From: a virus
Direction: 5' to 3' (one strand)
IMG/VR virus record: IMGVR_UViG_3300042934_000246
Location: 1 to 31,323 of that record
Length of the DNA stretch: 31,323 bases
Below, one piece after another: positions 5,220 to 31,323 of the stretch; within the stretch, counting starts at the first letter, position 1, and each line of letters starts with the position of its first letter. A program made the position numbers and the translations under genes. Below the pieces are notes generated by a model. The model was not told the DNA's origin, ran no database searches, and saw nothing but the letters and a program-made list of their open reading frames with translations.

Positions 5220-5386
5220 CAGGCGGGTTGTTCGATTTCGCATGAGGCACACCCGCGCATCATCGGTCGGTCATCGGGCCAAATGTGCAGGATTGTCTCA
5301 GGCCATCCACACGCGCACGGTTCGTCCGTGATCGCGGCGACCATGCCGGATTCCTCGTCTGGCGGTGTCACGTAGAGCACGCTCAT
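5219..5386 (-). CDS. Small cysteine-containing hypothetical protein
   Basis: A 55-aa frame starts at ATG 5386 preceded by GGGGAAGG. It contains EPCACGWPETILHIWPDD and RGCASCEIEQ, that is CxC and CxxC pairs that could bind a metal ion. It is the first gene after the 5413-5454 hairpin, so its expression may be affected by that structure. Confidence 0.58.
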   Translation of the reverse strand: MSVLYVTPPDEESGMVAAITDEPCACGWPETILHIWPDDRPMMRGCASCEIEQPA

Positions 5387-5412
5387 GGCGCCTTCCCCTT
5401 TTCGTTTGTGTG

Positions 5413-5454
5413 TTGTGGGGTTCGGTACCCCCCTGGCCGACCCGAACCCCACAA
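5413..5454 (-). terminator. Strong intergenic hairpin, attenuator-like
   Basis: A perfect 13-bp inverted repeat (arms 5413-5425 and 5442-5454, arm TTGTGGGGTTCGG) with a 16-nt loop lies between the stop at 5456 and the next start. No U-run follows on the transcribed strand. It is better described as an attenuator or mRNA-stability element than a proven terminator. Confidence 0.5.
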
Positions 5455-5455
5455 G

Positions 5456-5983
5456 TCAGCAGTGGTAGTCGACGACCACCAGTCGGGTGCCAGGATCAAG
5501 CGAGGACCACGCGGCCTCGAGCTCGCCCGTGGTGTCAATGAAGTTGTCGCCGTCCCAGAACTCTTTGGAGAATGCCCGCCCGCCCGCGATGAGCGTGAAC
5601 GGGGCCTGCGACTCGTCGAGTAGACCGCGGTAGGTGACATCGCCCTCGTGCCGCACCCAGTGGCTCGGGAACTTGACCTCGATACCCGTGGAGTCGCAGC
5701 CGTTACAGCCGTAGTCGTAGTCGGGGTGTTCGGCTCGCCAGGCGTCAGCCGCCTCATCATCGCGGCGCCCGGTGCCGTGGCAGAGCCAGCAGACCTTCAT
5801 GTTGCGGCGGTCGGTTCGCGGTTCGTAATCGCTGAGGTGCCCCGTCCAGCGCCCGCCGATCGACCACCAGTCCCAGATGCCGGCGCCGTCGTCGGTCTCA
5901 CGGTGAGGTTCCATCGCGGCCTCAACCGCAGCGTCGATGTCCTCAGCGCCGGGCGGGATCTCTACAAGCGCGAAGTAGTGCAT
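5456..5983 (-). CDS. Conserved phage protein with DnaJ-like zinc-binding CxxCxGxG repeats
   Basis: This 175-aa protein begins MHYFALVEIPPGAEDIDAAVEAAMEP. It carries GIWDWWSIGGRWTGHL near residues 34-49, a motif I know from a widespread actinophage early family. Two zinc-knuckle motifs follow, CWLCHGTG and CNGCDSTG, spaced as in a single DnaJ-type zinc finger. The remainder has GRAFSKEFW and a C-terminal strand. Function unknown. It is the first gene downstream of the long non-coding stretch. Confidence 0.72.
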   Translation of the reverse strand: MHYFALVEIPPGAEDIDAAVEAAMEPHRETDDGAGIWDWWSIGGRWTGHLSDYEPRTDRRNMKVCWLCHGTGRRDDEAADAWRAEHPDYDYGCNGCDSTGIEVKFPSHWVRHEGDVTYRGLLDESQAPFTLIAGGRAFSKEFWDGDNFIDTTGELEAAWSSLDPGTRLVVVDYHC

Positions 5984-7436: not shown

Positions 7437-7602
7437 CGAAGATCACCTCCGAACCCAGGACACGGGTCGCACGGGCGATCTCCACCGCGGTCAGAGAGTC
7501 ACGGTCTACCGTGAGGTGTCCGCGGGCGATACCGTTATCGTCAGCGAACCGGCCGAGCACTGCGTGTACAATCAGCCCGGCGATGTGTGATGGTGTGTCC
7601 AT
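7426..7602 (-). CDS. First early gene; small regulator-like protein, probably leaderless
   Basis: A 58-aa product, MDTPSHIAGLIVHAVLGRFA, with a C-terminal SLTAVEIARATRVLGSEVIFDG. It is mostly helical and could contain a short helix-turn-helix. The ATG at 7602 lies inside a repressor operator and six bases after a TACGGT -10 box, so there is no room for a Shine-Dalgarno sequence. Position suggests a Cro-like or antirepressor role. The sequence itself does not prove this. Confidence 0.62.
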   Translation of the reverse strand: MDTPSHIAGLIVHAVLGRFADDNGIARGHLTVDRDSLTAVEIARATRVLGSEVIFDGR

Positions 7603-7637
7603 GTGGACACCGTAGCAAGGTGTCCACGTGGACACAA
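7595..7637 (-). promoter_or_regulatory. Leftward early promoter with two repressor operators
   Basis: On the minus strand, -35 TTGTGT (7632-7637), a 17-bp spacer and -10 TACGGT (7609-7614) lead directly into the ATG at 7602. Two near-identical 16-bp palindromes overlap it. GTGTCCACGTGGACAC at 7620-7635 covers the spacer and -35, and GTGTCCATGTGGACAC at 7595-7610 covers the start point and start codon. Their centres are 25 bp apart. Binding at either would block initiation. The binder is presumably the divergent HTH gene. Confidence 0.75.
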
Positions 7638-7642
7638 GCGCT

Positions 7643-7671
7643 TTGTGAAAATCTTTTGGGGAAGATGTATC
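7643..7671 (+). promoter_or_regulatory. Possible repressor promoter
   Basis: TTGTGA (7643-7648), a 17-bp spacer and TGTATC (7666-7671) point rightward into the repressor gene. The -10 box is poor. The left edge abuts the operator at 7620-7635, so autoregulation is plausible. Confidence 0.3.
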
Positions 7672-8015
7672 ACGAGGGTGAGTTCGCGCTCGCTGGGAGC
7701 GTGAATACAGTGGATTCCGTTGGTTCGGGTACGGTGGTTGCGGTGGGGATTACAGACGAGGCTTACGAGCAAGCCATCGCCGCAGAGTTCGCTGCGCGCA
7801 TCGAGGCATACGGGGGCGTTGCCGCCTACTGCACCGACTTCGGATACGACCGGCGTAACTTCTCGCGGTACCTCAAAGGACGCAAGCTGAACGGCCGGCT
7901 AGTCCCCAACATCCCACCGACCCCCATGCTGCTTCGCCACATTGCGAACATGGGGGTCGGGTCAGGCGACTTCTTCCGGTCAGTTGACGAGCGCGCCGCT
8001 GCTATCAGCAACTAG
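7665..8015 (+). CDS. Helix-turn-helix repressor-like protein (putative immunity repressor)
   Basis: The conserved part is IAAEFAARIEAYGGVAAYCTDFGYDRRNFSRYLKGRKLNGR. It has an Xre-like helix-turn-helix in which GGVAAYCTDFGY is the first helix and turn, and DRRNFSRYLKG the recognition helix. A C-terminal tail of about 45 residues has LLRHIANMG. The start is uncertain: ATG 7665 has no spaced Shine-Dalgarno, while GTG 7710 follows GGGAG at ten bases. It diverges from the operator-bearing early promoter, as expected for the lysogenic repressor. It lacks a LexA/CI-type peptidase domain, so induction is not by RecA-stimulated self-cleavage. Confidence 0.68.
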   Translation: MYHEGEFALAGSVNTVDSVGSGTVVAVGITDEAYEQAIAAEFAARIEAYGGVAAYCTDFGYDRRNFSRYLKGRKLNGRLVPNIPPTPMLLRHIANMGVGSGDFFRSVDERAAAISN

Positions 8016-8459: not shown

Positions 8460-8475
8460 GCGTCCATTTGGACCC
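8460..8475. promoter_or_regulatory. Third repressor operator copy
   Basis: GCGTCCATTTGGACCC matches the operator GTGTCCA-N2-TGGACAC at 12 of the 14 specified positions, with symmetric mismatches. It lies 20 bp left of the tRNA-like core. No strong promoter overlaps it, so it may act in attachment-site or looping control. Confidence 0.5.
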
Positions 8476-8494: not shown

Positions 8495-8545
8495 CGCCCC
8501 CGACAGGAATCGAACCTGCGACCTTTGGTACCGGAAACCAACGCT
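8495..8545 (-). other. attP: attP core candidate: 3' half of tRNA-Arg(CCG)
   Basis: On the minus strand this reads as a tRNA 3' half. The anticodon arm is TTGGT/ACCAA around the loop TTCCGGT (anticodon CCG). It continues through a variable loop and T-arm GCAGG-TTCGATT-CCTGT to a 3' acceptor strand CGGGGGC plus G. The 5' half (expected GCCCCCG and D-arm) is absent: the sequence changes completely beyond 8545. Conserved tRNA 3' halves are classic integration cores, because insertion then restores the host tRNA. The intact core implies non-integrated DNA. Confidence 0.75.
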
Positions 8546-8593: not shown

Positions 8594-8632
8594 TTGTCCA
8601 CCTGGACACAACAGAGGGACCACGGGTACACT
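8594..8632 (+). promoter_or_regulatory. Integrase-operon promoter overlapped by repressor operator
   Basis: TGGACA (8603-8608), an 18-bp spacer and TACACT (8627-8632) form a good rightward promoter. The operator TTGTCCACCTGGACAC (8594-8609) matches 13 of the 14 specified positions of the early-promoter operators and covers the -35 box. The predicted repressor would therefore also silence integration genes in the lysogen. Confidence 0.6.
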
Positions 8633-8926: not shown

Positions 8927-9228
8927 TGAGCGAGCGCGATGCCTGGCGCGCTGACGCCCAGGAACTCAAGCAGACGCTATCTCATGCCACAACCGAGCGG
9001 GACAAGAGGCCCGACTTCGCGCCCGTATCGGGCGAACTCGGATGGGTGATCTACGAGCGCAACATCATGCACGACGCCGTGAACCGGATGCGCGCGCGAT
9101 ATGGGAAGCCCCCAGTCGCGAGGGATGAGATCGCGTGGGTTGAGACGCGAGCGTGCGGCCACATCGACTACGTGGCGAAGTATGCCTACGGCGCCGCCGA
9201 CCTCGTACACGCCCCGGATCATGGCTAG
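8926..9228 (+). CDS. Hypothetical protein upstream of integrase
   Basis: A 100-aa protein, MSERDAWRADAQELKQTLSHATTERD, with a helical start. The middle is GWVIYERNIMHDAVNRMRARYGKPP and the C-terminus ACGHIDYVAKYAYGAADLV. The ribosome-binding site AGGAG sits inside the upstream gene's repeat. It overlaps the integrase start by eight bases, so the two are translationally coupled. No family recognised. Confidence 0.6.
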   Translation: MSERDAWRADAQELKQTLSHATTERDKRPDFAPVSGELGWVIYERNIMHDAVNRMRARYGKPPVARDEIAWVETRACGHIDYVAKYAYGAADLVHAPDHG

Positions 9229-10453
9229 GGCTAAGGGTGAGGGTGGCCTGTTCTACTCGGAGGCCCGCGGACTGTGGATCGGACGCATCCAACTCCCACC
9301 CGGACCAGACGGGAAACCCCGCCGCAAACAAGTCACCGCGAAAACACAAGCCGCACTCCAAAAGAAACTGTCCGACCTCCGCCGACAGCTCGAGAAGCAA
9401 GGCGACCTGCACACCGCATCGTTCAAGGTGGACGACTTCCTCGACTACTGGATGCGGGAGATAGTCACACCCACCCGTCGGCCGAAGACTGCGGCGACGT
9501 ACCGGTCGAACCTGAAGTGGGTGTCGCAGGCGATTGGGCGGATGCGTCTACCAGATGTGAAGCCGGAGCATGTGCGGCGTGTGTTCACCCTCATGCGCGA
9601 CAACGACCTCTCGAGCACGTATCAACGCAACGTCCACAGCGTGATGGCCGCAGCGTTCATGGACGCCGAACGTGAAGGACGTATCCCCCGCAACCCCGTC
9701 GACCTCGTGCCCGCCCCCAAGAAGGCAGTCACAGACCTCCACGCCCTCACCGCACGGGAAGCCATCGACCTACTCGAAGTGTTCTCCCAATCCTCCGAGG
9801 GCGCACTCTGGGCGACGTTCATCCTCACCGGGGCCAGACGTGGTGAAGTGCTCGGGTTGCAATGGGATCGGGTCACCGACGTCCTCGACCTGTCATGGCA
9901 GTTGCAGCGCATCACAGACGGCCAACAACTCCCAGACGGCTTCGAGTACCAGCACCTCACCGATGGCCTCTACCTCACTCGTCCGAAGACGCGGGCGGGG
10001 TGGCGCATCGTGCCCCTCGTAGACCCCCTGGCGTCCATTCTGGAGCGTTACCGGGACCAGTCGGGCACCAGCCCCTATGGGCTTGTTTTCGCGCGTCCTA
10101 ACGGCGTCCCCTTCGACCCCGACTTCATCACAAAACAGTGGATCAAGATCCGTGAGCTCGCCGGCATCGCCCGCAACGTTCGCGTCCACGACCTCCGACA
10201 CACGACCGTCGACCTGCTGTACGCGGCCGGGGTTGAGGAGACGGCGATCACCGCTATCATCGGCCACTCGTCAAGGGCCATGTCGCGGGCGTACAAGTCC
10301 CGCTCCGACATCGCCGCACTCCGCAAGGGGATGCTGCAACTCTCCGCATCCCTCGCCTCTACGTCTGATGTGGCTGTTAATGTGAACGTAGAAGCCCCCG
10401 ACCCGATTGCGACGGGCCGAGGGCAAGAGCCGACTAGTAAGGAGTCGACATGA
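9221..10453 (+). CDS. int: Tyrosine integrase
   Basis: A 410-aa site-specific recombinase. Residues 1-60 (GEGGLFYSEARGLWIGRIQL... KQVTAKTQAALQKKL) are an arm-binding AP2-like domain. Residues about 65-170 form the SAM-like core-binding domain (FLDYWMREIVTPTRRPKTAATYRSNLK). The catalytic domain follows with R206 (TGARRGEVLGL), H323-x-x-R326 (HDLRH), H349 (IGHSS) and nucleophile Y358 (SRAYKS), all present with the usual H-to-Y spacing of nine. The ATG at 9221 avoids an out-of-character arginine-rich extension. It integrates and, with an excisionase, excises the phage. It lies between two attachment-like elements. Confidence 0.93.
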   Translation: MARAKGEGGLFYSEARGLWIGRIQLPPGPDGKPRRKQVTAKTQAALQKKLSDLRRQLEKQGDLHTASFKVDDFLDYWMREIVTPTRRPKTAATYRSNLKWVSQAIGRMRLPDVKPEHVRRVFTLMRDNDLSSTYQRNVHSVMAAAFMDAEREGRIPRNPVDLVPAPKKAVTDLHALTAREAIDLLEVFSQSSEGALWATFILTGARRGEVLGLQWDRVTDVLDLSWQLQRITDGQQLPDGFEYQHLTDGLYLTRPKTRAGWRIVPLVDPLASILERYRDQSGTSPYGLVFARPNGVPFDPDFITKQWIKIRELAGIARNVRVHDLRHTTVDLLYAAGVEETAITAIIGHSSRAMSRAYKSRSDIAALRKGMLQLSASLASTSDVAVNVNVEAPDPIATGRGQEPTSKEST

Positions 10454-10770
10454 ATGAGTCTACCGGTGCGAAGCTCACACCCGAGGAATACGCCCGACTA
10501 CAGGCTGAGGTGCAGGCGGGATTGAAACGGCTGACCGCGCACGCCGAGGTCGTTCTCCGTGCGGCGCGGGAGCGCGGCGAGACGTACACCGTCCACTACT
10601 GGCGTTATCTCCAGCGGTACGAGGAAGAGGTGTTGACGCTCGACGAGGCCGTGTCATACGTCCAGGGCGGCGAAGACGCGGGCACGTTGTCGGGCGACTA
10701 CATCTCCGGGCCTGGCGGTTCGCGCTTCGCAACGGACGGCACACCCTCGCCGCCCGATGGGAGTGAGTAA
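10450..10770 (+). CDS. Small helical protein downstream of integrase
   Basis: A 106-aa protein starting in an ATGA overlap with the integrase stop, with AAGGAG upstream. It begins with a helical region (KLTPEEYARLQAEVQAGLKRLTAHAEVVLRAARERGETYTVHYWRYLQRYEEEVLTLDEAVSYV). A low-complexity tail follows, ending SPPDGSE. The end is encoded by a diverged copy of the junction repeat. No family recognised. Confidence 0.6.
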   Translation: MNESTGAKLTPEEYARLQAEVQAGLKRLTAHAEVVLRAARERGETYTVHYWRYLQRYEEEVLTLDEAVSYVQGGEDAGTLSGDYISGPGGSRFATDGTPSPPDGSE

Positions 10771-10880
10771 TGAAGGCGCGACGTGAGTACATCCTGAGCC
10801 CCGCGCAGATCGAAGCGCTAGGTGGGCGCGAGTTCATTGAGCGACTGTCAGCTCTCGCCGCCGATAGGAGTGAGCAATGA
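10770..10880 (+). CDS. Very small protein (36 aa)
   Basis: The ATG at 10770 shares its A with the upstream TAA stop, with GGGAG before it. The product MKARREYILSPAQIEALGG, then REFIERLSALAADRSEQ, is a short helical hairpin. Its last residues come from the 31-bp junction repeat shared with the 8926 junction. Confidence 0.55.
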   Translation: MKARREYILSPAQIEALGGREFIERLSALAADRSEQ

Positions 10881-13144: not shown

Positions 13145-13339
13145 TTAGTTGCCGTCGATGATTTTGCGGACAGTGTTCGGGGCGAGCCCGGTGAATGCGG
13201 CGAGCTCACGGATCGACGCATCGTCGTTCGCGGCTGCCATGATCGCATCCCGGTACGCCCGGTCAGCCTTAGCCTTCGCCACCTCAGCACGCCTAATCGC
13301 GGCCTGATGCTTCGAGGGAACGGTGCCCCGGACTGTCAC
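13145..13339 (-). CDS. Small helix-turn-helix protein
   Basis: A 64-aa protein from a GTG overlapping the upstream stop. A basic coiled helix (KHQAAIRRAEVAKAKADRAYRDAIMAA) precedes SIRELAAFTGLAPNTVRKIIDG, a clear helix-turn-helix (residues 43-63). Such proteins near actinophage lysis cassettes are usually annotated only as DNA-binding. It may regulate the nearby palindrome at 13497-13540 or late transcription. Confidence 0.68.
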   Translation of the reverse strand: MTVRGTVPSKHQAAIRRAEVAKAKADRAYRDAIMAAANDDASIRELAAFTGLAPNTVRKIIDGN

Positions 13340-17632: not shown

Positions 17633-18057
17633 GGAAGCAGCTCCTTCGTCGGATCAGGCGCCCACAACTGCAACCGGTAACGTGCCCGCGACCCATACAC
17701 CTCGATGATGATTTCCGGGGTACCGATCCGACCAACCTCTGCCGTGTACGTACCCGTCGCCTGCTCCACCGTGAACGTGTCCATAGAGCCATCCGCGAGC
17801 AGATCCTCGAGCGCCTTCATCGCCACCTCGAACGCCGCAGGGTCATCCGCAGTCAGGATGAAACCCGAGAGAGTGATGAGCCGAGGCCCCAAGCGACCAG
17901 GCGTGGGGAAGTCGCCGTTCCCCAGCGGGCGGGCGATGATCTCCCGCCGCATCTCCACACCCTCAAACCAGCCCGTGAGACCACGGTCACGGAAGATCGT
18001 GTATGTGGCTGCACCTTCCCCACCGACGAACGTCAGCCCACCAAGAGTCGCGTTCAT
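17629..18057 (-). CDS. Distal tail (Dit-like) protein
   Basis: A 142-aa beta-rich protein starting in an ATGA overlap with the tape-measure stop. It has LGGLTFVGGEGAATYTIFRDRGLTGWFEGVEMRREII and LITLSGFILTADDPAAFEVAMKALEDLL. The N-terminal domain layout of Dit proteins is ring-forming and connects tail tube to baseplate. The usual galectin-like second domain is reduced, so this is a short-form Dit. Confidence 0.7.
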   Translation of the reverse strand: MNATLGGLTFVGGEGAATYTIFRDRGLTGWFEGVEMRREIIARPLGNGDFPTPGRLGPRLITLSGFILTADDPAAFEVAMKALEDLLADGSMDTFTVEQATGTYTAEVGRIGTPEIIIEVYGSRARYRLQLWAPDPTKELLP

Positions 18058-20786
18058 CCGTTCCCCCTAGCCGCAAACGCCATCCGCTCCGCAGCGATAC
18101 GGCCGATCTGCTCCTCGCTCATCCCCGGCGCCGGCTGAATGATCTGCGTAACATCGACACTCGCGACAGCACCGCCACCACCAGACCCCCACCGGGAAGG
18201 CGGCGCGTACTGAGGCTGAACCTCACCACCATCCGCATACCCACGAATCCGCCCACCACTGTTGATGTAGTGCAGCAGCGCCTTGTTCCGCTGCGCCGCC
18301 TCCGTGTTGACAACGAACTCACCGGTAGCCGCATGGATCAGCACGTTGTCCTTACGTGACGGGCGTCCCGGGATCTCTCCACCGTCCGCGAACCCACCCG
18401 CGGTACCGTCACCCGCCGCACCCTCCCGAGTCGCCCGGTACACGATCGAACCCTTCAGCGTCCCGTAACGGGTCATAAAGTCGTCGATCGTCGTAGCCGC
18501 CGTCGCCGTGTCAGCAAGAAACTTGATCTGCTTCTCGTCGGGCAGAGCGAACACCTTGTCAGCAAGGATCTGCACCTCTTCGGCGTTGTAACCCGCCTCA
18601 GTCGCAGAGTCGATAAACGCCTGCCGCTGAGCCTCCAGCGTGCCAAGGTAGATTGCGGTCGCCGCGTCGGCACCGACCGTCGCCGAATCAACCTCGAACT
18701 GTGCGCGCGCGGCATCCTGCGCCTTGCTCGCAACATCCGCGAGCATCGCCGCGTTAGCCGAACCCGACTCGGTCGTCTCATCCAACGTCAGAACGAAGCC
18801 GTCCAGCGTCCCAACGAAACCCTCCAGGGTGCCGTTAGCATCCAGGAACGCCTTCTTCTGCAAATCGACGAACGCTTCCTTCTGCCGGTCCACCTCATCA
18901 CTGATCCCAGCAAGAGCCGACTGGTACGCCGCGTTCGTGCTGACAGCGTCCTGACCGATCCCGTTCGCCTCATTGATCGTGTCGATCAGCTCACGCAGGT
19001 TCGACTGAAGTTCCTCAGCCTTGTCCGCAGCATCCTTGTACGCAGTCGCCGCATCCGTGGTCTTATCCGCCGACACGTCAGCCGCAGCAGCCTGATCCTC
19101 AAGGTTCTTGTCAGCCCGCTCGAGACCATCCGAGAGTGCGTTGACCGTGTTCACCGAGTTAGCGATAGACGGGTCGAACGGGTTCCCGTTGGCGTAGTCG
19201 TAGAGCTTCTGCCGCAGATCCTCGACGGCGTCGCCGCCCTCAAGAATCGCGTCAGTGAGTTCCTTCTGCGAGATGCCGGCGTTCTTCGCACCATCGAAAG
19301 CGCCCTGCTCTGCAAGCTTCTTCGCAACCAGTTCCCGCGTGTAGTCCGTGACAGCACCGGTCGTCTGGTCCAGGGACTCCTCAAACTCCGCCGCCGTCGC
19401 CGTAGCCTCACCCTGACGCTGCGCCCAAATCGCGAACGCAGTGCCGGCAAGAGCTAGTGCACCAGTCGCCAGACCAATACCCCGCGCCGCAGACGCACCC
19501 GAAATGTTCAGGGTCGACATCGCCAGCTTGAACTGGGCAATCTTCGGCACCGCGAGCAGCGCCGCACCACCCACAAGACCAACAGCGGCAACAATCCCCG
19601 TGATCTGCGTGGCAACACCGAGAACAGGCTCCGGGATACTGCCGATCGCGTCGACAATGCCCGTCGCACCCTGCGTCACACCGCGGAGAAGATCGTTGAC
19701 ACCCGAACCCGACTTGATAAGGGCAGTGTCGATCGCGCCGCCCAGCTTCTCCACATCACCGGTCAGGTTGTTCAACCGGTCAGCGGCAACCTTCGCCGCA
19801 TATCCCGAGTCGTTGGTCTGGTCGATGTACTTCCGGATACCGTCAGCACCCTCGTCGTACAGGACGTTCGCGACACGCAGCGCATCGTTACCGAAGATCT
19901 GAGCCAGAGCCGCGTTACGGGTCTCGTCAGTCAGCGAACCAAGGTTCTCGTCCAACTGGCCGGCGATCTCATCGAACGCGAGCATCTGCCCGTTGGTGTC
20001 ATAGAAGGAAAGGTTGTACTCCTCCATGATCCCGCGGGCCTTGTCGGTGGGCGCCTGGAGCGCGATGATCGCAGCCTTCAGCGACGTACCCGCATCCGAG
20101 CCCAGTAGTCCCGCGTCAGCGAACGCAGCCAGCGTGCCCGTGGTGTCCTCGATGGACTGACCCGCACCGTTCGCGACCAGACCAACCTGACCCAGCGCGT
20201 CCGACAGATCCTCAACGTCACCGACAGCCTTACCCGCACCAGCCGCAAGCAGATCCGCCACGTGAGGGATGTCTTCACCCTCAAGGTTGAACTGCTTCAA
20301 CGCGATAGCAGCGATGCTCGCAGCCTCGGCAACCTCGAGCTGACCCGCCGCAGCGAGATCCAGCGCACCGGTCAGACCGCCACCGAGGATCTGCTCAGTC
20401 GTCAGGCCAGCCTTACCCAGTTCCTCAATCGCGTTCGCCGCCTCCGTGGCAGAGAACACCGTCGAAGCGCCAGCCTCGAGCGCCGCATCACGCAGCAGGC
20501 TCATGTTCTCGGCAGACTCCTGCGTCGCCGCCTGAACGTTGCTCATGGCCTGGTCGAACTCGGCGAACTTCGCCACAGCGATACCGAAAGCCACCGCAGC
20601 AACCGCACCGATCGCAGCGACACCAGCGCCGACCTCAGACATCGCCTGATGCTGCTTCTCAAGCTTCGCCGCAGCCTTAGCAGCCTCGTCCCCAACCTTC
20701 GAGGTCGAGTCCTGAGCCCGCTTCATGTCGGCAATGTAGGAATTGACGGACGCCGTAAGCGTGACCTTCGTCTGGCGGTCGGCCAA
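18054..20786 (-). CDS. Tape measure protein
   Basis: A 910-aa protein starting at 20786 after GGAGG. The N-terminus has a coiled coil. A hydrophobic segment at about residues 52-72 is followed by FDQAMSNVQAATQESAENMSLLRDAALEAGA, the conserved PhageMin-tail region. Two further hydrophobic segments lie at about 395-450. A long alanine-rich helical stretch leads to the C-terminal motif GGFADGGEIPG...GEFVVNTEAA, typical of actinophage tape measures. It sets tail length and assists DNA entry. Its upstream neighbour on the other strand is a lipoprotein gene. Confidence 0.93.
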   Translation of the reverse strand: MADRQTKVTLTASVNSYIADMKRAQDSTSKVGDEAAKAAAKLEKQHQAMSEVGAGVAAIGAVAAVAFGIAVAKFAEFDQAMSNVQAATQESAENMSLLRDAALEAGASTVFSATEAANAIEELGKAGLTTEQILGGGLTGALDLAAAGQLEVAEAASIAAIALKQFNLEGEDIPHVADLLAAGAGKAVGDVEDLSDALGQVGLVANGAGQSIEDTTGTLAAFADAGLLGSDAGTSLKAAIIALQAPTDKARGIMEEYNLSFYDTNGQMLAFDEIAGQLDENLGSLTDETRNAALAQIFGNDALRVANVLYDEGADGIRKYIDQTNDSGYAAKVAADRLNNLTGDVEKLGGAIDTALIKSGSGVNDLLRGVTQGATGIVDAIGSIPEPVLGVATQITGIVAAVGLVGGAALLAVPKIAQFKLAMSTLNISGASAARGIGLATGALALAGTAFAIWAQRQGEATATAAEFEESLDQTTGAVTDYTRELVAKKLAEQGAFDGAKNAGISQKELTDAILEGGDAVEDLRQKLYDYANGNPFDPSIANSVNTVNALSDGLERADKNLEDQAAAADVSADKTTDAATAYKDAADKAEELQSNLRELIDTINEANGIGQDAVSTNAAYQSALAGISDEVDRQKEAFVDLQKKAFLDANGTLEGFVGTLDGFVLTLDETTESGSANAAMLADVASKAQDAARAQFEVDSATVGADAATAIYLGTLEAQRQAFIDSATEAGYNAEEVQILADKVFALPDEKQIKFLADTATAATTIDDFMTRYGTLKGSIVYRATREGAAGDGTAGGFADGGEIPGRPSRKDNVLIHAATGEFVVNTEAAQRNKALLHYINSGGRIRGYADGGEVQPQYAPPSRWGSGGGGAVASVDVTQIIQPAPGMSEEQIGRIAAERMAFAARGNG

Positions 20787-20817
20787 GATACACCTCCGCT
20801 AGATCGGTCTTGAGTTG

Positions 20818-20831
20818 TAGAGTCAGCGCCA
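20818..20831 (+). promoter_or_regulatory. -10 box of the lipoprotein gene, leaderless start
   Basis: TAGAGT (20818-20823) is separated by seven bases from the ATG. No convincing -35 box is seen at 17-18 bp. The geometry equals that of the 11336 gene and is close to the early promoter. Confidence 0.4.
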
Positions 20832-21136
20832 TGAAGCGCCTCATTGCTGTGCTGTTACCCGTGCTGTTACTGACGGGCTGTGCGGCGCCCAGCGTCGAAG
20901 ACGCCTACGTGTCCGTAGTGCGCGAAGGCGTGCCGGCGTTAGCCGACGCCGGGGCCGCTGAACTGACCAAACTCGGCAATCAGGTGTGCGGCATCCTCGA
21001 GGACCGGGGATTCGAGGACGGCATGGTCGAGTTCATCCGCATCGCGAAAGACGCCGGACTCACAGCCGCCGAAGCAGGCCGTGTCGCCGGCGCCGCATCC
21101 GTCGCGTACTGCGACGAATACGCCGACGAGTTCTAG
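20831..21136 (+). CDS. DUF732-like lipoprotein, inverted within the tail operon (probable lysogenic-conversion gene)
   Basis: The 101-aa product begins MKRLIAVLLPVLLLTGC, a signal peptide with lipobox LTGC and lipidated Cys17. The mature part is helical with two cysteines (C53, C94). Its ending GLTAAEAGRVAGAASVAYC matches the DUF732 pattern of mycobacterial secreted proteins. TAGAGT ends seven bases before the ATG with no Shine-Dalgarno, suggesting a leaderless mRNA. It is the only rightward gene in the late operon and fills the gap between chaperone and tape measure exactly. It could be expressed in lysogens. By analogy with Ltp of phage TP-J34, a superinfection-exclusion role is possible. 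Confidence 0.82.
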   Translation: MKRLIAVLLPVLLLTGCAAPSVEDAYVSVVREGVPALADAGAAELTKLGNQVCGILEDRGFEDGMVEFIRIAKDAGLTAAEAGRVAGAASVAYCDEYADEF

Positions 21137-21597
21137 TACTCGAACTTGTCGGCGGTGAAGTACACGCCGTTCAGGTTCGCGCCCTCACCCATCGCCTTGC
21201 GGTGCGCGTCGAGCGCGTCAAGGCGTTCCTTCTCAGCCCAGTTCGTGAACGGACCATTAGCGACGTACCGCATACCGGAGTACGACATCGGGTCAGCATC
21301 ATCCGACGTCGCTTCTGGCATCCACTCGCCGTTAGGTCCGGTCAGGTTCCGGACCATTTGCTCAGCCATCACAAGGTCAAGCTGTTCTTCGTCCCACTCA
21401 GGTTCGACCACTGACGAGACCATGCGTCCGTCGCCGTCGTACTCGTAGAACGTGCGTGGCTCCCACCCCCAGAGTCGCCGTGGGGCGATCCCGGAGCGCG
21501 CGGCGAAAGCTACTTGCTGACGGAGCGCGACGCTGCCCCGGAGCCTTTTACCAGTGCGTTGAGTCGTTCCTGCGGTTCGTACTCGTTCAGTGACCAC
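21133..21597 (-). CDS. Tail assembly chaperone, downstream (T-like) frame made by -1 frameshift
   Basis: This frame has no good ribosome-binding site, and its convincing part begins around VALRQQVAFAARSGIAPRRLWGWEP. That motif is characteristic of the second half of actinophage tail assembly chaperones. It overlaps the preceding chaperone gene in the -1 frame between 21510 and 21597. Translation as a fusion after slippage is expected, with the fusion reading 22085 to 21133. The ending FTADKFEY meets the convergent lipoprotein stop at a shared CTAG. Confidence 0.75.
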   Translation of the reverse strand: MVTERVRTAGTTQRTGKRLRGSVALRQQVAFAARSGIAPRRLWGWEPRTFYEYDGDGRMVSSVVEPEWDEEQLDLVMAEQMVRNLTGPNGEWMPEATSDDADPMSYSGMRYVANGPFTNWAEKERLDALDAHRKAMGEGANLNGVYFTADKFEY

Positions 21598-22085
21598 ACG
21601 GCGTCACGAATCTTGCCAATGTCGCTACCGGAGAGGACGTCGAACAGGTCACCCCACTCGTCGTCGCTGATGTCGACAGGTTCGCCGTCCTCCAGCCGTG
21701 CACCGTACGCCACGTTTGACGTGTCCCGGTAACGTGCCGCGGCTTCACAGGCGGCGTCGTAGTTGTACCCGTAATGACGGTCAATCGGGACGTCGGGCCG
21801 CACCGGGCACTTCGACGTCAGGTTCGACCAGTCACGCCCGGGGAGGCGGGTGAGGCGGATGGTGAGGAGGGAATCGACGGACTGTTCCGCGAGCTCGTCA
21901 AGCTGCTTCTGGATCTCGTCAGCCGGCGACGCAACACCCATTCGAGTGTCGGTCAGATCGACGGCCGCGAGTTCCTTCTCCAGCCGCTCCCGCTCAGCAG
22001 ACACAGCGCCGTCGAGGACAACCACCACATCCTTGAAAGGCCGTGCGGCACGAGCCGCAGCCAACTGCGCCCTGAAGTCAGACAT
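21510..22085 (-). CDS. Tail assembly chaperone, upstream (G-like) product
   Basis: A 191-aa product, MSDFRAQLAAARAARPFKDV, with a coiled segment (ERERLEKELAAVDLTDTR) and a helical acidic C-terminal half ending KGSGAASRSVSK. The start at 22085 overlaps the previous gene. Chaperones of this kind bind the tape measure and recruit tail-tube subunits. Position between major tail protein and tape measure, plus the frame overlap, identify it more than sequence. Confidence 0.75.
   Translation of the reverse strand: MSDFRAQLAAARAARPFKDVVVVLDGAVSAERERLEKELAAVDLTDTRMGVASPADEIQKQLDELAEQSVDSLLTIRLTRLPGRDWSNLTSKCPVRPDVPIDRHYGYNYDAACEAAARYRDTSNVAYGARLEDGEPVDISDDEWGDLFDVLSGSDIGKIRDAVWSLNEYEPQERLNALVKGSGAASRSVSK
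21545..21551 (-). other. Probable -1 frameshift slippery site
   Basis: In the zero frame the mRNA reads CTG GTA AAA GGC. Slipping back one base at GTA-AAA (heptamer GTAAAAG) enters the downstream chaperone frame. A second option is GGG in TCC GGG GCA, 8 bases later. Confidence 0.5.
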
Positions 22086-22314
22086 CGGTGCCATCCTTCA
22101 GCTCGTCCTGGTATACAACGCGCTCCCAGCGAGGCTGGATGATGTCGTAGGGGTGCAGTCCGTGTGGGCTCAGAACCTCCACAAGTTCATCGTGGTGCTT
22201 CTCGAACCAGCCGTTAAGGGCGTCCACGGCATCCGTGGGGATGGCGACGAGGCGCAGTTGGTCGCGGACAGCGATGCGTCCAGCATCGAACGGATTTACA
22301 GGCTTCTCAGTCAT
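22078..22314 (-). CDS. Small protein between major tail protein and chaperone
   Basis: A 78-aa protein, MTEKPVNPFDAGRIAVRDQL, with LVAIPTDAVDALNGWFEKHHDELVEVLSPHG. It is helical and acidic. Its position could make it a separate tail assembly or head-tail factor. No family recognised. It begins just after the strong hairpin that follows the major tail protein gene. Confidence 0.62.
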   Translation of the reverse strand: MTEKPVNPFDAGRIAVRDQLRLVAIPTDAVDALNGWFEKHHDELVEVLSPHGLHPYDIIQPRWERVVYQDELKDGTDV

Positions 22315-26428: not shown

Positions 26429-26878
26429 TTAGCGCTGTGCGCGGAGATACCGTGCGGCGGCGTCGAGGATTTCGGGGTTGTCTCGGAGGTGGCCTATCCC
26501 GACGTTGCAGGATGAACAAAGGAGTCCGCGGACTCGCCCAGACGTGTGGCAGTGGTCTACGCAGGGTGGCTCCATGACAACGCCACAGATGGCGCACGCG
26601 CCCTCTTGGCCCGCAAGCATCCGGCGGTAGTCGTCGCCAGTCAGCCCGTACTTGTGCTTGCGCTTGTGATCACGAACCGCCTCGCGATTGGATTCCCGCC
26701 ATTGCGCCACCGCGAGCGTTGCGTGCACACGGTTCCTGCCTTGCCAGTCGCGGAGAGTCTCGCGTGAGCAATCCTTACACCTGGATTGGCGGCCGTCCTT
26801 CGCGCGGGCATTTCGGTGAAAGTCGTGAAACGGCTTTGCTCCGCCACACATCGAGCACGTCTTGGTAGAGTGAGGCAC
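26429..26878 (-). CDS. Endonuclease VII-like HNH nuclease
   Basis: The GTG at 26878 has GGGAG five bases upstream and gives 149 aa. An N-terminal zinc knuckle CSMCGGAKPF...CKDC precedes the endonuclease VII core YGLTGDDYRRMLAGQEGACAICG...VDHCHTSGRVRGLLCSSCN, with NPEILDAAARYL at the end. The family resolves branched DNA or acts as packaging-associated or homing nuclease. Placement between head genes, plus its own terminator, suggests either insertion or a packaging role. Confidence 0.85.
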   Translation of the reverse strand: MPHSTKTCSMCGGAKPFHDFHRNARAKDGRQSRCKDCSRETLRDWQGRNRVHATLAVAQWRESNREAVRDHKRKHKYGLTGDDYRRMLAGQEGACAICGVVMEPPCVDHCHTSGRVRGLLCSSCNVGIGHLRDNPEILDAAARYLRAQR

Positions 26879-26981
26879 ATCAACTCCCTTACCGAGTTGG
26901 TCACGCCCCCGGAGGATGCCAGTCCTCGCGGGGGTATCTTGACTCAATTATCCCAGGTGCCGCCGACATTCCCCCGGGTTG

Positions 26982-29479: not shown

Positions 29480-31240
29480 TCAGAAAAATACGTAGTTGTC
29501 AGCCGGCTCGTCAAACTGGCCGTCTCTGAGCGCGTCCATCGTGGCTTCGTGCGCGAGGGTCGAGCTCATGGCCTGGTCGATCTTTTGGTGATCGGCGCCA
29601 TGAGGCTTGCCGAGGACGTACCGCTGCATCGTCTTCGCGATCATCACCGCGTTTGTGACATGCAGCTTCGTGACCTCGTCGCCGTCGTGCGTGAACCGTG
29701 AATCCGGTGTCCGCACCGCCGACCGAAGCTGCTCGAGCGACGCATGCATGGGCGTGATCCGCGAACACGACCACGGGACGAACACCTTCGGGCCATACTT
29801 CGCCGCCCATTCGGCCAGCTCAGTACGCCAAGAGTCGTCGTCAGGGATCGCGTCGGGATCAATCGCTCCCATCGCCGAACCGGCCGGGTCGATGTACGCC
29901 CTGACAATGCGGAACTCCGACGCCAGGTAATCGACCGCCGCCAACACCTCACCGCGAGGAATGAACCCCCCAAACAGGCTGGGATTCCACACGGTCGGGC
30001 GCAGATCACCACCGACGTTGAACGTCGGCGTGAACTGGTACAGATCCTTCGTCTCGAGCCGTATACCGGTCCAGTCGTTGTTGTTCGACAGGTCCATGCC
30101 CATCGCAACGGACGTCCGCGGCTTCACGATGACGGGAGTCTTCGACTTCCGCGCCTCCCACTCCTCAGGAGTGAGCCACTTACCCGAGCCGGCCACCAGA
30201 CGGTTCCCGAAGAAACGTTCCGCCTGCGCAGGGTCGCGTTTCATCAGCGACTTAGCCAGAGCCTCGATCGAGTCGAGATTCACCCACCACGAGCCCTCAT
30301 ATGCGAACTCGTGGATCTTCCGACGCTCCGACGCCACGTCATAGCGAAGCGGCTTCCCGTCATCGCCACGCATCTCGTTCGGGTCGCGGTAGAACACGAA
30401 CACGTCGTCCTCATGCGCCTCGAAAATCTGCTGCGCATACGAGTTCTCAGTCGGATTCCACGCATTCGTCGTCAGGTGAGTGCGACCACCCATACCAGCC
30501 GCACCACGCGCCTGCGTATCCGCCGTGTCCACCATCTTGTTCGACTTCGTGTACAGGCCCGCCTCATCCTGCTCGGCATCCGAGATCGGGTTACCAAGAC
30601 GGGAACGCGCTGACGCCGTCACGACGTCGATGCGGTCGAAGTCATCCTGATCCGACAGCCCCAAGATGCGGATGAAACCCTCGCGGACAGCCAGCAGGTG
30701 CTTCAGCGGCCCCAGCCGGATCATCGCCGTCAACGGACGGTAGATGTTCGCAGCCTGGTCCTCAGAGTTCGCCGTGATCTGGATCAGCGGCGACGGGTGC
30801 CGCATCCCAAGCGGTTCACCCTCGAGATACGTGTACCGTTCAGCCGAGTCTTCCCACCCACACGAGCAGCCGTTGTCAGCGCACGAGTAAACCTCGCCAC
30901 CCTCAGCCCAACCAGCGAAAACGGACGGCCCACACGCCTCAAACGCCACCTGCGACGCCGAAAACGGACCCTTGCCCGTCTTCTGCGGCGCCACAATAAA
31001 CGTCATCCGGTAGAAGAACGCCTGGTTGAGGATCGGAGGCTCATCCGGCCCCACGCGCTCCGGAGGAACAAACACCGCATCCTCACGGACCCGATACCGG
31101 TTCGCGTGACACCAGAACTGCCAATCAGCGAGCTCAAACGGCTTACCGCGCGTGAACCCATCAGGAACACGGCAATGACGAGTGATCCACGCGTTCCCCA
31201 GGTCACCTAGGGTCGGGAAGTCGACAACATACTCAGCCAC
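29480..31240 (-). CDS. terL: Terminase large subunit
   Basis: A 586-aa packaging motor. The N-terminal ATPase has Walker A APQKTGKG at about residues 84-91 and an acidic Walker B-like DAEQDEAG around 221-228. The C-terminal nuclease domain has MGMDLSNNNDWTG (first catalytic Asp), VRAYIDPAG and DQKIDQAMSST-type ends. The start is GTG 31240, or TTG 31243, overlapping the small-subunit stop. An unusual cysteine cluster (CADNGCSCGW near residues 120-130) interrupts the ATPase domain. Confidence 0.9.
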   Translation of the reverse strand: MAEYVVDFPTLGDLGNAWITRHCRVPDGFTRGKPFELADWQFWCHANRYRVREDAVFVPPERVGPDEPPILNQAFFYRMTFIVAPQKTGKGPFSASQVAFEACGPSVFAGWAEGGEVYSCADNGCSCGWEDSAERYTYLEGEPLGMRHPSPLIQITANSEDQAANIYRPLTAMIRLGPLKHLLAVREGFIRILGLSDQDDFDRIDVVTASARSRLGNPISDAEQDEAGLYTKSNKMVDTADTQARGAAGMGGRTHLTTNAWNPTENSYAQQIFEAHEDDVFVFYRDPNEMRGDDGKPLRYDVASERRKIHEFAYEGSWWVNLDSIEALAKSLMKRDPAQAERFFGNRLVAGSGKWLTPEEWEARKSKTPVIVKPRTSVAMGMDLSNNNDWTGIRLETKDLYQFTPTFNVGGDLRPTVWNPSLFGGFIPRGEVLAAVDYLASEFRIVRAYIDPAGSAMGAIDPDAIPDDDSWRTELAEWAAKYGPKVFVPWSCSRITPMHASLEQLRSAVRTPDSRFTHDGDEVTKLHVTNAVMIAKTMQRYVLGKPHGADHQKIDQAMSSTLAHEATMDALRDGQFDEPADNYVFF

Positions 31241-31323
31241 CAACAGCCCTCAGCCGGCGAACCGGCGCAACAGGACCATCCGACTCCGCCACAGCAGCCG
31301 CCGCGGCCGGAACAGCAATCGTC
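31233..31323 (-). CDS. Terminase small subunit, C-terminal end (runs off the window)
   Basis: The minus-strand frame entering from the right reads TIAVPAAAAAVAESDGPVAP then VRRLRAVGG and stops at 31233, overlapping the terL start. Only about 29 residues are visible. The identity is from position and the basic, low-complexity tail common in these proteins. Confidence 0.45.
   Translation of the reverse strand, partial: TIAVPAAAAAVAESDGPVAPVRRLRAVGG

Follow-up and report, generated by a model that had tools for sequence, protein, structure and literature searches.

The 31,323-bp virus record IMGVR_UViG_3300042934_000246 (the window, analysed over its whole length) raises the question of why a phage should carry a small lipoprotein gene, transcribed against its late operon, between the genes for the tail assembly chaperone and the tape measure protein (TMP). 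The gene content fits a siphophage, which is temperate as judged by its tyrosine integrase gene (Table 1). As a sequence-only reading of the locus had proposed, no other credible rightward gene lies in the stretch from about 11.6 to 31.2 kb. The lipoprotein gene is an intact ORF whose stop codon overlaps that of the chaperone. The earlier reading placed the feature at 20787-21136; the end holds, while the gene itself starts at 20831 and the stretch from 20787 is intergenic, with the predicted promoter and the ribosome site of TMP. Codon scoring shows no rightward gene in the late block at threshold, and the gene is recognised by profile match and conservation.

Table 1. Features of the window in the tail region and the immunity/integrase region.
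Feature	Position	Strand	Evidence or remark
Two palindromes GTGTCCACnTGGACAC, putative repressor operators	7595..7635		
Candidate repressor region	7656..8015	+	No Pfam match; diverges from leftward early genes
Tyrosine integrase	9101..10453	+	PF00589, 1e-12
Leftward structural block	TerL 29480-31243 down to about 11.6 kb	-	
TMP, 910 aa, TTG start	18054..20786	-	PhageMin_Tail 3.8e-49
Predicted leaderless promoter	20818..20830	+	-10 TAGAGT, CAGCGCC, then ATG; without Shine-Dalgarno
DUF732 lipoprotein gene, 101 aa	20831..21136 (ATG 20831, TAG 21136)	+	Signal peptide 1-16, lipid Cys17
CTAG overlap of convergent stop codons, lipoprotein and chaperone ORF	21133..21136		
Tail assembly chaperone, second ORF	21133..21597	-	Position, overlap, synteny with annotated relatives; no profile match
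Tail assembly chaperone, first ORF	21510..22094	-	Position; synteny

The lipoprotein and its conservation

The protein begins with MKRLIAVLLPVLLLTGC, followed by AAPS, and has both the signal peptide and the lipobox (LTGC) that define a bacterial lipoprotein. LLTGC is invariant in 16 sequences, and the LPAM_1 profile score of 18 bits is just under the cut-off of 20. The product is thus predicted to be secreted and tethered by its lipid to the outside of the cytoplasmic membrane. Besides the lipid-bearing Cys17, it has two cysteines, C53 and C94, which are invariant down to 27% identity. The DUF732 match (PF05305; 29.9 bits against a curated cut-off of 22.4, E 7.5e-7) bears out the earlier assignment, and phrog_658 is matched at 4e-12. 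The AF2 model is a confident helical domain (pLDDT 88). Its closest viral folds in BFVD are DUF732 phage proteins, including those of Daubenski, Suzy and Finch (TM 0.68-0.70; best E 4.4e-3, above 0.001), and the model has the DUF732 fold with paired cysteines, for which a C53-C94 disulfide is putative. PDB sequence and fold searches with the lipoprotein returned nothing significant, tblastn against isolated phages gave no match at E 0.01, and no near match to the late region was found at the DNA level.

The gene is kept at the same junction in 12 metagenomic relatives from two samples, with one copy broken, and a dN/dS of 0.111 (66 pairs, 12 copies) indicates strong purifying selection. In the broken copy (L013, 5976-6210), in effect a knock-out made by nature, the promoter and the 5' half of the gene are gone and the 3' half is left beside sequence resembling the end of an HNH gene. 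The tail genes are retained, and the lipoprotein gene is therefore dispensable in at least one relative. L006 and L008 have a gene for a 211-aa HNH endonuclease-like protein, recognised by eye from its sequence, between tmp and the lipoprotein gene (5254-5889 in both), and Footloose gp16 is an HNH endonuclease at the corresponding junction, a repeated target of homing-type insertions.

Elsewhere in the window, the palindromes GTGTCCACnTGGACAC have eight matches versus 1.7 expected (0 of 100 shuffles), all within 7.6-8.6 kb; further copies at 8460-8475 and 8594-8609 are likewise confined to the immunity/integrase region, and the window scan found none at the lipoprotein promoter. Near the integrase gene, positions 8495-8525 resemble a tRNA 3' end in reverse complement (GGTTCGATTCCTGTCGGGGGC) and may be an attP core; ARAGORN found no tRNA there. 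A short repeat at differing junctions of related phages (window 26876-26970; 8658-8753 in L010; 5887-5922 in L006) may represent an intergenic element that is mobile or has a regulatory role.

A conserved slot and its start signal

A TMP profile scan yielded 80 viral loci and 10 loci in bacterial genomes (Microbacteriaceae, Arthrobacter, Cellulomonas, Cellulosimicrobium and Brooklawnia). In 25 of 55 TMP clusters, the junction carries an inverted gene whose product is a lipoprotein or small membrane protein, versus 6 of 336 other late genes (Fisher 7e-19), as counted by a crude detector that requires a hydrophobic segment. The detector misses the window's own cluster, represented by a broken copy (L014), as well as L030 and L056, and its positives L031, L089 and L094 are doubtful. 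The occupants include DUF732-type lipoproteins (L028, L080, L082 and L030, with L074 weakly matching phrog_658), lipoproteins of other kinds (L029, L042, L056) and small membrane proteins of roughly 56-104 aa with one or two transmembrane segments. Among annotated isolates, the inverted junction gene is present as Footloose gp15, Auxilium gp18, Bridgette gp17, BritBrat gp17, Kukla gp16, Faja gp18 and Karkharias gp17, and as TripleJ gp17 and Hum25 gp16, which are annotated 'membrane protein'. In Footloose, Auxilium and Bridgette no other gene of the structural region is inverted, and in TripleJ just one other is; the 4-bp stop overlap is identical in Footloose, Auxilium, TripleJ, Faja, Kukla and BritBrat. 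No such gene is present at the chaperone/TMP junction of Bbif-1, Ajin, the M. abscessus prophage prophiGD43A-1, Webster2 or Aesir. The junction is thus a conserved slot whose occupants are often non-homologous and exchangeable. The window gene has the attributes of a moron, being an extra gene between genes that are adjacent in relatives (prophiGD43A-1, Webster2, Aesir), with a predicted leaderless promoter of its own.

An integrase is present in each of the 12 slot-positive contigs that are at least 35 kb long and in the isolates checked, and Aesir has neither integrase nor slot gene. Lifestyle does not separate the two groups, as most slot-negative relatives are temperate too (integrase in 13 of 15). 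PADLOC and NCBIfam gave no credible match to the slot proteins; the sole hit above cut-off, a 28-residue LPXTG-anchor match in the L051 membrane protein, was rejected. A chromosomal origin of the lipoprotein gene was also considered and set aside: no DUF732 was detected in ten Micrococcales genomes, where control genomes gave no match either, and the slot-family profile matched once in 396 genomes. A literature search covering few subscription papers returned no published description of the slot.

Slot genes with unrelated products share one layout, in which TANNNT is followed after 6-8 nt by the start codon, without a Shine-Dalgarno sequence. With starts as first chosen, 23 of 33 slot genes have this layout versus 0.47% of ATG/GTG positions and none of 67 late genes; conversely, sites resembling a Shine-Dalgarno sequence precede 2 of the 33 slot genes and 52 of the 67 late genes. 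If any in-frame start is permitted, the count becomes 28 of 34, that of TripleJ being doubtful, and on equal terms 20 of 22 slot ORFs have the layout versus 9 of 868 other antisense ORFs. The p-values overstate independence because the loci are related; the difference is nonetheless extreme, and it holds across proteins that are not homologous. In mycobacteria, nearly a quarter of transcripts are leaderless and C is preferred at -1 (PMC4633059); C is seen at -1 here too.

In the window, the arrangement TAGAGT-CAGCGCC-ATG occurs once. Its core, TAGAGTCAGCGC(C)ATG, is preserved in L006 and L008 despite the HNH insertion that replaced the DNA just upstream, so that the leaderless-type start noted from the sequence stands. 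A sigma-70 -35/-10 scan found no promoter at the lipoprotein gene, as expected because the site would be -10-only. A second leaderless-looking start in the window (TACACT-7nt-GTG; 13145-13339, leftward) belongs to a 64-aa helix-turn-helix-like ORF in the late block. In Isolde (NC_070835.1, around 10614-10834), an unannotated inverted slot gene has TACAAT-6nt-ATG, and BritBrat gp17 (NC_030942.1) is better started 15 nt upstream (MKKISMAVAACLSLAVSAGC), which restores both a lipoprotein signal and TACGAT-6nt-ATG.

What the slot gene may do

Independent expression of the lipoprotein gene is well supported by inference, because the gene is inverted, the predicted leaderless promoter is common to the slot class and no putative operator lies nearby. 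It is very probable, judging from these features, that the gene is an independently expressed envelope moron in the slot. With its own promoter pointing against the late operon, it could be transcribed from a repressed prophage. The lipoprotein, displayed on the outer face of the membrane, would then, by analogy with HK97 gp15 and TP-J34 Ltp, interfere with the tape-measure-dependent opening of the membrane and the ejection of DNA by an incoming siphophage. The location of the slot would let the cargo travel with the tail module while the identity of the protein filling it remained exchangeable.

The sequence-only reading also suggested that the lipoprotein is co-inherited with the adjacent tmp, and this was not established. 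TMPs about 90% identical exist without the lipoprotein gene in small satellite-like elements; next to a TMP about 71% identical, the slot holds an unrelated lipoprotein, and related TMPs are found with another occupant (L029) or with an empty slot (L040). Lipoprotein distances correlate with those of TMP windows (rho up to 0.58), above chaperone windows, but p(max) is 0.107 after window correction, and the Mantel tests both lose significance on this correction and depend on L006. A fixed pairing of the lipoprotein with one TMP is not supported. DUF732 lipoproteins are in part found away from tape-measure genes, a distribution that the earlier reading had counted against itself, as two of them (L130 in L041 and L126 in L073) are inverted at another tail junction, kilobases downstream of tmp. 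L126 also has TACACT-7nt-ATG.

A repeated element of ~10.2 kb is present in L021/L022 (IMGVR_UViG_3300042934_000247), L035 (3300042923_000785) and L064 (3300042923_000278). It encodes AAA/primase-like and head-scaffold-like proteins, a terminase small subunit (phrog_1496, 5e-18) and a tyrosine integrase, together with a complete tape measure gene (910 aa) that shares about 86% DNA identity with the window tmp, and no other tail genes were recognised in it. From its gene content, it looks like a phage satellite with its own tape measure.

That the lipoprotein protects the lysogen against further infection at the TMP/DNA-entry step is therefore proposed tentatively, at slightly less than even probability: there is no fixed TMP pairing, DUF732 lipoproteins occur at another junction, DUF732 phage proteins often lie in whiB neighbourhoods (PMC8612146), and the DUF732 protein Troll4 gp76 is among the genes toxic to growth when expressed (PMC7474061). 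The broader proposal, that temperate actinophages maintain a dedicated slot by tmp with inverted, leaderless and swapped membrane-targeted occupants that each shut out phages bearing certain tape measures, is possible but less probable.

The foremost alternative is lysogenic conversion, in which a prophage-expressed envelope lipoprotein would alter the host surface or stress physiology, with no exclusion, and the slot would be merely a tolerated insertion site. The occurrence of DUF732 in many phages (BFVD), often near whiB rather than tmp, and at the other tail junction is in keeping with this, as is the chemical diversity of the occupants. Against it, insertions concentrate at the TMP junction, and the occupants are nearly always envelope proteins, as fits a role in DNA entry, although the detector requires a hydrophobic segment; on balance lysogenic conversion is somewhat unlikely. 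A role in the lytic cycle (lysis timing, assembly, exclusion during infection, or antisense tuning of tmp or the chaperone) is suggested by the convergence of the gene on the chaperone with overlapping stops and by a promoter inside the TMP leader region. It is improbable, since the protein is under purifying selection, for which there would be no call if antisense RNA alone mattered, an HNH gene of about 0.8 kb separates the promoter from tmp in two relatives, and L013 still has its tail genes without the promoter and 5' half. Least probable is a selfish passenger hitchhiking with the tail module without benefit, which the invasion of the junction by HNH endonucleases and the broken copy in one lineage would suit, but which the strong purifying selection and the conserved promoter bases argue against.

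If the slot genes encode exclusion proteins expressed from the prophage, a rule of position and promoter (inverted, leaderless, between chaperone and tmp) would find dozens of unannotated actinophage exclusion proteins, and Footloose, Bridgette, TripleJ, Auxilium and BritBrat would be laboratory-tractable isolates in which to study the arrest of DNA entry by small membrane proteins. A DUF732 protein would also gain its first assigned function.

Comparison with known systems

Actinophage DUF732 proteins (phrog_658) have the same Pfam domain and fold as the window lipoprotein but are reported from other genome regions, such as the whiB neighbourhoods. Among actinobacterial phages, a Cutibacterium acnes phage has a lipoprotein, gp41, that is implicated in resistance to superinfection (PMC11480721); it was found by similarity to Ltp and is not a DUF732 protein. 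Ltp of TP-J34 is a phage lipoprotein outside the membrane that is expressed from the prophage and stalls DNA injection via the TMP (PMC3952083, PMC11480721), and changes in the TMP overcome it (cited in PMC10883804). The comparison with Ltp, drawn earlier from the sequence, is looser than that reading implied and does not extend to position or family. The Ltp gene is next to the integrase gene within the lysogeny module (PMC3952083), whereas the window gene is in the tail operon; Ltp consists of two repeated domains and is not homologous, and searches of Pfam, PHROGs and PDB folds gave no Ltp family or fold match to the window lipoprotein.

The closest analogue is gp15 of HK97, a proven superinfection-exclusion protein, which blocks DNA entry, with the tail tube and TMP genes deciding sensitivity (cited in PMC10883804). 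It differs in being an enterobacterial, non-homologous transmembrane protein, rather than a DUF732 lipoprotein, and its gene has a terminator and is co-oriented with the tail genes, whereas the window gene is inverted. Like the slot occupants, however, gp15 is prophage-encoded and is predicted to be a membrane protein, and it is a moron between the frameshifted tail chaperone and tmp (NC_002167), the same junction as that of the window gene.
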